A stretch of 64,000 nt of DNA from Clostridium sp. GTDB lineage: Bacteria; Bacillota; Clostridia; Lachnospirales; Lachnospiraceae. The stretch lies in contig JAISOV010000029.1 of assembly GCA_031275405.1 (NCBI GenBank), forward strand, positions 1 through 64,000, written 5' to 3'. Below are positions 7,731 to 9,351 of the stretch, in pieces. The notes under the pieces were generated by a model. The model had not been told where the DNA came from, made no database searches, and was given only the letters and a program-made list of their open reading frames with translations. How positions within the stretch are numbered: position 1 is the first letter of the stretch; every line of letters begins with the position of its first letter. Made by a program: the position numbers and the translations under genes.

Positions 7731-9351
7731 CTACCCTGTCGATCCTATTTTCATATATAAAACTCCATCCACCACCTGCATGGAATCCGGCGCGGGGAAG
7801 ACGCCCATTCCAAGATAAGTGTCGGATCCGAAGATACCTGACGCCTCTTCCCTACTGACCAGATTGAGCCTGACATGCAGATAGCGCAGGAAGAACGTCC
7901 GGTATCTCTCCCTGCTGCCTATCAGCCGACTGTGGGCTACCCCTATCATCTGAGACACGACCTCATAATAGTCATCCGTCATCGGATACACGTCCTCGTC
8001 TACATAATCGTTGAGCGCAATGGGGATCCCTGGGTAATAGCCCGGCGTCGCCTCCATCCTGTTCAGCAGGCGCAGACAATAAGCATAGGTTTTCTCATAA
8101 CGCCGCTCCATAGACAGATACCCGACATTGGCGCGGACTCCGTTGTCATAGACCAGGAAAGCGGCTGCCGCCAGTGCCGCCAGCCGCAGCCAGGCATAAC
8201 CACGAAAAAGAACCTGCCTGCCTGCCTGCCTGCCTGCCTGCCTGCCTGCCTGCCTGCCTGCCTGCCTGCCTGCTCAATAAGGCCAATGCCGCTAACGGAA
8301 ACAACACCCAGTGCATCCTCGTGAGCGTATGCTGCCAGACTTTCGGGCTTGCCAGCATCAGGATGTCCGTACCGAGAGGAAGCCCAAGCAGCACGACCGC
8401 CAGACTCGCCAAGCGGACAAAACGGTCTTTTCCTTTCTTCCAGCCCAGCACGGCCGCCCACACTGCGGCAGCGGCCAGCACCGCCACGCTAAGAAGCGTG
8501 AACCGGCTGTGGAACAGCAGCTCGCCCTTGACCGCGAACGCCGCGAACTCCCGATAGACTTCCAGGCTCAGACGCGGAAGAGATCCGATGGTAGGGATCC
8601 CCATCCCACTGATTCCCTGGTAGGAAGAAAGTTCCACACGCTCCACAGCCATCGCGATCCGCAGGAAACCATAGTATAAGGCCAGGCCCAAAGCCCCCAT
8701 TGCCAGAAACCGGGCCGTCTTCCCAAGCCATTCCCGCCAGGCCCGTCCCTCTATCAGATCCAGAAGAAGAAGCAGCAGGCACAGCACGGCCGCGAATGCC
8801 AGATACGCCTGATAGATGCCCAGGCTGAACGCAAGCGTGAAAGCGCCTGCCAGCCAGCCGTTCCGGTAATGTTTCGTCAGACACAGGGAAACCACCGCCA
8901 GCAGCAGCGCCAGCTGATAGGTATCCGCCACAAACAGATAGGCAAACTGCGCCGTCACGGCGGGAAACGTGACCAGGAGACCGGCTCCCAGGACGATGCA
9001 GCTTTTCTTCTTCAGCTCCAGCAAGTACACAAGCAGGCAGCTGGTGACGGACAGAAAAAAAAGCGACCAGAGTCCTAAGACCACTGGCGGATCATACACT
9101 GAAACGATTCTCTGCACTGCCGGCTGAAACCACCGGCCTAAAGCAGTTCCCCCCACGTAGCCGGTGTCGTTCAGGCTGTCACCGCTAGGGAAGCCGCCCA
9201 CGATCTGTTTCAGATGGGTCGCCAGGCCGATCAGGAACGTGGCCAGGAAAGCCGTCCGATATTCCGCCGCAAAGCTTCCGCAAAAGAAGTTCCTTTCAGT
9301 TTCTTCCAGATCTGGTTTACCCGTTTTGTTTTCCATTTTATTTTCACCCAT
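7731..9351 (-). CDS. GtrII-like membrane glucosyltransferase, phase-variable, currently out of frame
   Basis: Two open frames are one gene split by a repeat. The 5' part encodes a multi-span protein typical of GtrII glucosyltransferases (GGFPSGDSLND, then GRWFQPAV, about ten membrane segments). The 3' part (YEKTYAYCLRLLNRME) is its C-terminal domain. Between them, inside the last membrane region, are 15 copies of CCTG. With 15 copies the first frame runs out at 8146. With 14 or 17 copies a continuous protein results (538 residues at 14 from the ATG at 9351), reading through VLFRGYAWLRLAALAA into the C-terminal domain. Family members attach glucose side groups to surface polysaccharide from a lipid-linked donor. 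The start could also be the ATG at 9336. Confidence 0.82.
8213..8272. repeat. Tetranucleotide tract (CCTG)15
   Basis: Fifteen uninterrupted CCTG units (CAGG on the coding strand) encode repeated Gln-Ala-Gly-Arg. A unit of four means any gain or loss shifts the frame. The length is in the range of known contingency loci. Confidence 0.97.

Follow-up and report, generated by a model that had tools for sequence, protein, structure and literature searches.

Slipped-strand switching of surface-glycan genes is familiar from several bacterial groups. In the contingency loci of Haemophilus influenzae (lic1-3, lex2 and oafA-type genes), a perfect tetranucleotide tract lies within the reading frame of an enzyme that acts on surface glycans and gives three phases, one of them ON; these tracts, with units such as CAAT or GCAA, are usually found near the 5' end of the gene. 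Campylobacter jejuni and Neisseria have poly-G phasomes, with several glycan genes out of frame per genome, while switching of the Salmonella gtr genes depends on DNA methylation and uses no repeats. Among Gram-positive bacteria, a TTTA tract in Staphylococcus aureus icaC switches a membrane polysaccharide gene and is proven to be reversible (PMC4117637), and the number of pentanucleotide GCAGA repeats switches a surface structure, Pil1, in Streptococcus gallolyticus (PMC3894217). The gtr operons of Salmonella are also described as phase variable (PMC11868660).

The locus examined here lies in a 64,000-nucleotide stretch of a Lachnospiraceae genome (the window). Like the H. influenzae loci, it has a perfect tetranucleotide tract within the reading frame of an enzyme for surface glycans, but the unit is CAGG, the tract is two-thirds into the gene, and the host lineage is different. 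It shares with icaC (PMC4117637) a Gram-positive host and a tetranucleotide placed late in the gene of a polytopic membrane protein from a polysaccharide operon or locus, where slippage truncates, or here would truncate, the product within its transmembrane (TM) part; in contrast, icaC is an acyltransferase-3 protein with an AT-rich unit, and the two families are unrelated. Pil1 (PMC3894217) is likewise a case of repeat-number phase variation in a Gram-positive, although its switch works by way of a leader peptide and attenuation of transcription, whereas the tract described here would act through truncation of an enzyme. The glucosylation operons of Shigella and Salmonella share the GtrII-type glycosyltransferase (PF14264), but the gtrABC serotype-conversion operon also has gtrA and gtrB, and neither a gtrA flippase nor a gtrB Und-P-glucose synthase had a Pfam match among the ORFs scanned between 430 and 26688. 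Finally, out-of-frame glycan genes with poly-G tracts, at 19909-19919 and elsewhere in the genome, recall the C. jejuni and Neisseria phasomes, with the differences that the host belongs to the Bacillota, that a tetranucleotide is present as well, and that the tracts are known here from assembled sequence alone.

An earlier note on this DNA read the tract as a switch and set it against Haemophilus and Neisseria. The anatomy that it described and its assignment to a Lachnospiraceae-type genome hold, but its stress on those two genera makes the finding look more surprising than it is, given the Gram-positive precedents (icaC, Pil1). The mechanism is known; the host lineage, the unit (CAGG) and the gene family (GtrII) are new to us. 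Searches of open-access full text returned no papers linking phase variation, tetranucleotide repeats and Lachnospiraceae, which is weak evidence of absence, and nothing relevant on homopolymeric tracts; few have searched this family for slippage switching.

Results

A CAGG tract joins or separates two halves of a GtrII gene

The tract occupies 8213-8272 and consists of 15 perfect CCTG units, the number counted in the earlier note, on which TRF (15.2 copies, 100% match) and an exact regular-expression search agree. On the coding (-) strand it is a tetranucleotide slippage tract, (CAGG)15, that encodes RQAG repeats. As in simple-sequence-repeat contingency genes, it is perfect, its unit is not a multiple of 3, and it is within a coding frame. 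Its length is far above chance: the runner-up tetramer array on the same 149-kb contig has 3 units, and no array of more than 4 units arose when the contig was simulated 40 times with an order-3 Markov model. It is also the sole CCTGx4 array in the source genome, a single draft assembly of 2.98 Mb in 59 contigs that is 84% complete. DNA resembling the locus was absent from the plasmid records searched.

The 5' part of the gene (8273..9336, (-) strand) starts at ATG 9336, or alternatively at ATG 9351, and encodes the polytopic membrane part of the protein. The 3' part (7731..8212, (-) strand) is in another frame, has no internal stops, and is open to the stop at 7731; it encodes the last TM helix and a C-terminal domain with a YEKTYAYC motif. 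As assembled, the reading frame is OFF (8146..9336, (-) strand), and its 396 amino acids end past the repeat in an out-of-frame tail. Counting from ATG 9336, 16 copies would also be out of frame (425 aa), while 11, 14, 17 and 20 copies join the halves into proteins of 529, 533, 537 and 541 aa. Copy arithmetic thus reproduces the proposal that 15 copies are OFF and 14 or 17 are ON. The 538 residues previously given for 14 copies are obtained from ATG 9351, but ATG 9336, directly preceded by a GGGTGA motif, yields 533.

The upstream half matches GtrII (PF14264, residues 50-341) with E values of about 1.3e-44 to 3e-44 and a score of 152 bits against a curated cut-off of 30, in agreement with the family named in the earlier note; a Pfam search found no family of its own for the downstream half. 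The conserved acidic residue expected in the first extracytoplasmic loop of GtrII is present: the Asp of SGDSLND, in the catalytic loop, aligns with the invariant Asp of NHDGL (A1, column D46) and is conserved in the homologues. When the model of a homologue with 40% identity (L018) was compared with the PDB using Foldseek, ALG12, AftA, PglB and ArnT were matched with probabilities of 0.90-0.99 but E values of 0.05-0.2. The structures matched at high probability are GT-C enzymes, all with E > 0.01, and they support a GT-C fold as a prediction only.

Homologues are uninterrupted and the downstream half appears intact

The two halves had been taken to be one protein, and the homologues bear this out, since they cover both halves in one uninterrupted ORF. 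The joined protein is 41% identical over residues 15-529 to a paralogue on the same contig (C32:131268-132845), which is one open frame of 547 aa, and 40% identical over residues 24-533 to a homologue in another genus (G022). The paralogue is a distinct subtype, with NHDGL..FDQNMLTSGRW versus SGDSLNDTGYVGGTALGRW. Scanning genome contigs yielded 80 loci, mostly from Lachnospiraceae assemblies, and the homologous ORFs from these loci and from the genomes of relatives were full length and uninterrupted in all cases (86/86), so the frame break is specific to the GtrII gene with (CAGG)15. A CAGG repeat was found in none of the 86 ORFs, and relatives that were checked for two separate genes have one gene without a repeat instead. 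These homologues thus give no evidence that the switch is conserved, and the repeat could be a recent expansion.

Near-invariant positions of the family are retained at 40 of 59 sites in the C-terminal half and at 56 of 94 in the N-terminal half. The ratio of C-terminal to N-terminal identity between the GtrII gene and its homologues is 1.08, inside the range of the homologues among themselves, 1.12 (s.d. 0.07). By these measures the downstream half shows no sign of decay, and because of this, the loss of frame would be either recent or often reversed.

The repeat replaces a length-variable loop

In the alignment, the repeat stands in place of a loop of ∼4 to ∼50 residues, where members of the family differ most in length. 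The L018 AlphaFold model (mean pLDDT 79.6) places the site in a short loop that connects helices 339-355 and 361-414, with the C-terminal domain after them. One homologue (L025) has a long low-complexity loop at this site, and another (L043) reads ..FVSRQAGGRK.. there, suggesting that such an RQAG stretch is a plausible seed for the tract. Because each RQAG adds one Arg, the loop is probably cytoplasmic, and the ON protein should tolerate steps of four amino acids within it.

The gene lies in a surface polysaccharide locus

Pfam assignments place the GtrII gene in a surface polysaccharide locus (430..26688, (-) strand). In addition to GtrII, the locus encodes a UDP-sugar dehydrogenase, a transketolase half, an HMGL-like protein, a cytidylyltransferase (CTP transferase), a HAD phosphatase, an MptE-like protein, a flippase (Polysacc_synt), several GT4 glycosyltransferases, two Acyl_transf_3 proteins, a hexapeptide acetyltransferase, a FemAB/GNAT protein, and a Wzy_C-like polymerase that scores slightly under its curated cut-off. 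At 2775-5391, the pyrimidine-binding half of a transketolase adjoins the HMGL-like protein, whose C-terminal half matches no family, and the cytidylyltransferase and HAD phosphatase are close to this pair; the neighbourhood is possibly an unusual activated-sugar pathway.

Other repeats were also observed in the window. A (GCC)10 array at 20426-20455 encodes an alanine run in the Acyl_transf_3 gene at 20038-21114 and is in frame, so that only length should vary. Other genes of the locus contain in-frame poly-G tracts of 8-9 bases (18649-18657, 11117-11125, 20557-20564 and 22937-22944), and tandem repeats of longer period are located at 45385-45464 (17 bp x4.7) and 47541-47657 (23 bp x3.7).

Poly-G tracts split further surface or regulatory genes in the same genome

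A second candidate for phase variation in the polysaccharide locus is the hexapeptide acetyltransferase gene (19333..20036, (-) strand), in which a G11 slippage tract on the coding strand (19909..19919, (-)) lies between an N-terminal frame starting at ATG 20036 and a C-terminal frame ending at the stop at 19333. The assembled G11 leaves the gene out of frame; G9 or G12 would join the two frames. Homologues in three genomes (G015, G024 and G052) span both frames as single ORFs.

Elsewhere in the genome, a G10 tract interrupts a second GtrII gene (C59:10432-10441, L246), with contiguous coverage of the PF14264 profile, positions 9-68 upstream of the tract and 76-317 downstream, and another G10 tract splits a GT2 glycosyltransferase gene (C46:1657-1666, L244). 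A G13 tract splits a cupin/AraC/GH39 protein (C59:59643-59655, L247), and a G16 tract splits a polytopic membrane protein with a weak ALG10-like match (C7:134882-134897, L240). A G11 tract on C56, within the gene of a large surface protein, is in frame. The clear tract-bearing genes, including the GtrII gene with (CAGG)15, are mostly OFF as assembled, a pattern that a fixed loss of function would also explain. Homopolymer counts in draft assemblies may be one base off.

The number of poly-G tracts was considered as evidence and rejected, as the count is no higher than composition predicts: G/C runs of at least 9 number 19 genome-wide versus ∼22 expected from an order-3 Markov model (scaled), and 3 versus ∼1.1 on the 149-kb contig. 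What gives these tracts evidential weight is that they split surface genes which are conserved and otherwise intact. In G045, from another genus of the family, a G11 tract splits a GT2-like gene and an acyltransferase-like ORF carries a G10 tract at its start (L253/L255, both judged by eye).

The same tetramer occurs in an acyltransferase gene of another genus

Among 397 genomes of the family, arrays of at least six CAGG units were found in only one other genome (G319), which belongs to another genus and has 14 units (contig C26, near 3289-3348; L098 1498-1553). This tract lies early in an Acyl_transf_3 gene, beginning ∼8 codons past the ATG and ahead of the conserved Acyl_transf_3 start (PF01757, E 1.9e-31; ISILRIVATLAVVWLHTN), a layout closer to that of the H. 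influenzae loci than is the GtrII tract. The frames of the acyltransferase join at 12 or 15 units, and the assembled 14 is out of frame. The gene belongs to another polysaccharide locus, in which the neighbouring genes, named by eye from their sequences, encode a NeuB-like synthase, a polymerase-like membrane protein and a UDP-galactopyranose-mutase-like (Glf-like) protein. The tract was found in none of eight congeners, and the acyltransferase itself had a weak match in just one. The CAGG unit thus arose in two glycan-modifying membrane enzymes that are unrelated to each other.

A sample of 398 genomes from across the phylum contained three more CAGG arrays, of 6-7 units. Judged by eye, these are at the end of a peptidase/HTH-like ORF, intergenic, and in one case without clear context, and they were rejected as parallels. 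Viral contigs with CAGGx7 (66 loci) were set aside, as none is tied to this lineage.

Discussion

We consider it likely that the (CAGG)15 GtrII gene undergoes translational ON/OFF phase variation by slipped-strand mispairing. Slippage during replication would add or drop 4-base units, giving mixed copy numbers among cells. Copy numbers of 2 mod 3 (11, 14, 17 and so on) would join the frames and allow synthesis of the full ∼533-aa enzyme, while any other number would bring a stop soon after the tract and leave a product that lacks both its final TM helix and the conserved C-terminal domain, which would be expected to abolish activity. Differences in length between ON alleles would be tolerated, as the RQAG repeats fall in the inter-helix loop that is already the most length-variable in the family. 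The enzyme is predicted to be a GT-C type membrane glycosyltransferase of a Wzx/Wzy-type surface-polysaccharide locus, probably acting on the polysaccharide itself, and through switching the exported polymer would probably gain or lose a side-branch sugar in a reversible way. Antigenic or phage-receptor variation from cell to cell may result, with a possible benefit against phage or immunity. Phase variation is supported by the (CAGG)14 parallel in G319, by the G10 tract in the second GtrII gene, and by the G11 tract in the acetyltransferase gene of the same locus.

The gene might instead be a recent pseudogene: the repeat would have expanded by chance where the loop tolerates it, breaking the frame, and the gene would now be decaying while its function is served by the intact paralogue found elsewhere on the contig. 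The OFF state of the assembled gene, the homologues that lack the repeat, and the presence of that paralogue are all compatible with such a history. We regard it as unlikely, however, as all 15 units are perfect and neither half is otherwise damaged, CAGG occurs independently in the same class of gene in another genus, further surface genes are turned OFF by tracts in the same genome, and a paralogue of another subtype with just 41% identity is not plainly redundant.

Two other explanations were considered. If the true copy number were in frame and fixed, the gene would be ON with a repeat-bearing loop, and the OFF state would be an error of sequencing or assembly. Assembly from short reads may have miscounted the units, since tandem tracts are error-prone and the genome is a draft, and homologues do tolerate long loops at the site, including the low-complexity one in L025; but a tract of 60 bases is contained within a normal short read, and this explanation is very improbable. 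Phase variation would in any case survive a miscount, because a perfect 4-base tract as long as this one in a coding frame is itself a slippage substrate even if the count is one unit off. Least probable, to the point of being hardly credible, is that the OFF-looking layout is functional, either as two separate genes or as one recoded by frameshifting. A separate ATG does open the downstream ORF (8111, 126 aa), but all homologues are one ORF, an internal start would leave out the last TM helix, and the sequence gives no support for repeat-driven frameshifting.

Whether Lachnospiraceae more broadly carry a slippage-based phasome is, in our judgement, evenly balanced. It would include, in this genome, the two GtrII genes and the GT2, acetyltransferase, membrane glycosyltransferase-like and cupin/AraC/GH39 genes, switched through tetranucleotide and poly-G tracts, and, in other genera, acyltransferases and GT2 genes. 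Lachnospiraceae are dominant gut commensals, and in gut commensals variation of surface polysaccharides sets both phage susceptibility and immune recognition. Surveys of phase variation in the gut mostly target invertible DNA; slippage loci escape tools that find inversions, and in draft genomes they resemble frameshifted pseudogenes. The tract in a capsule-type locus of a Lachnospiraceae genome, together with its parallel in another genus, offers a concrete target, as the copy-number spectrum is readable from existing metagenome reads.
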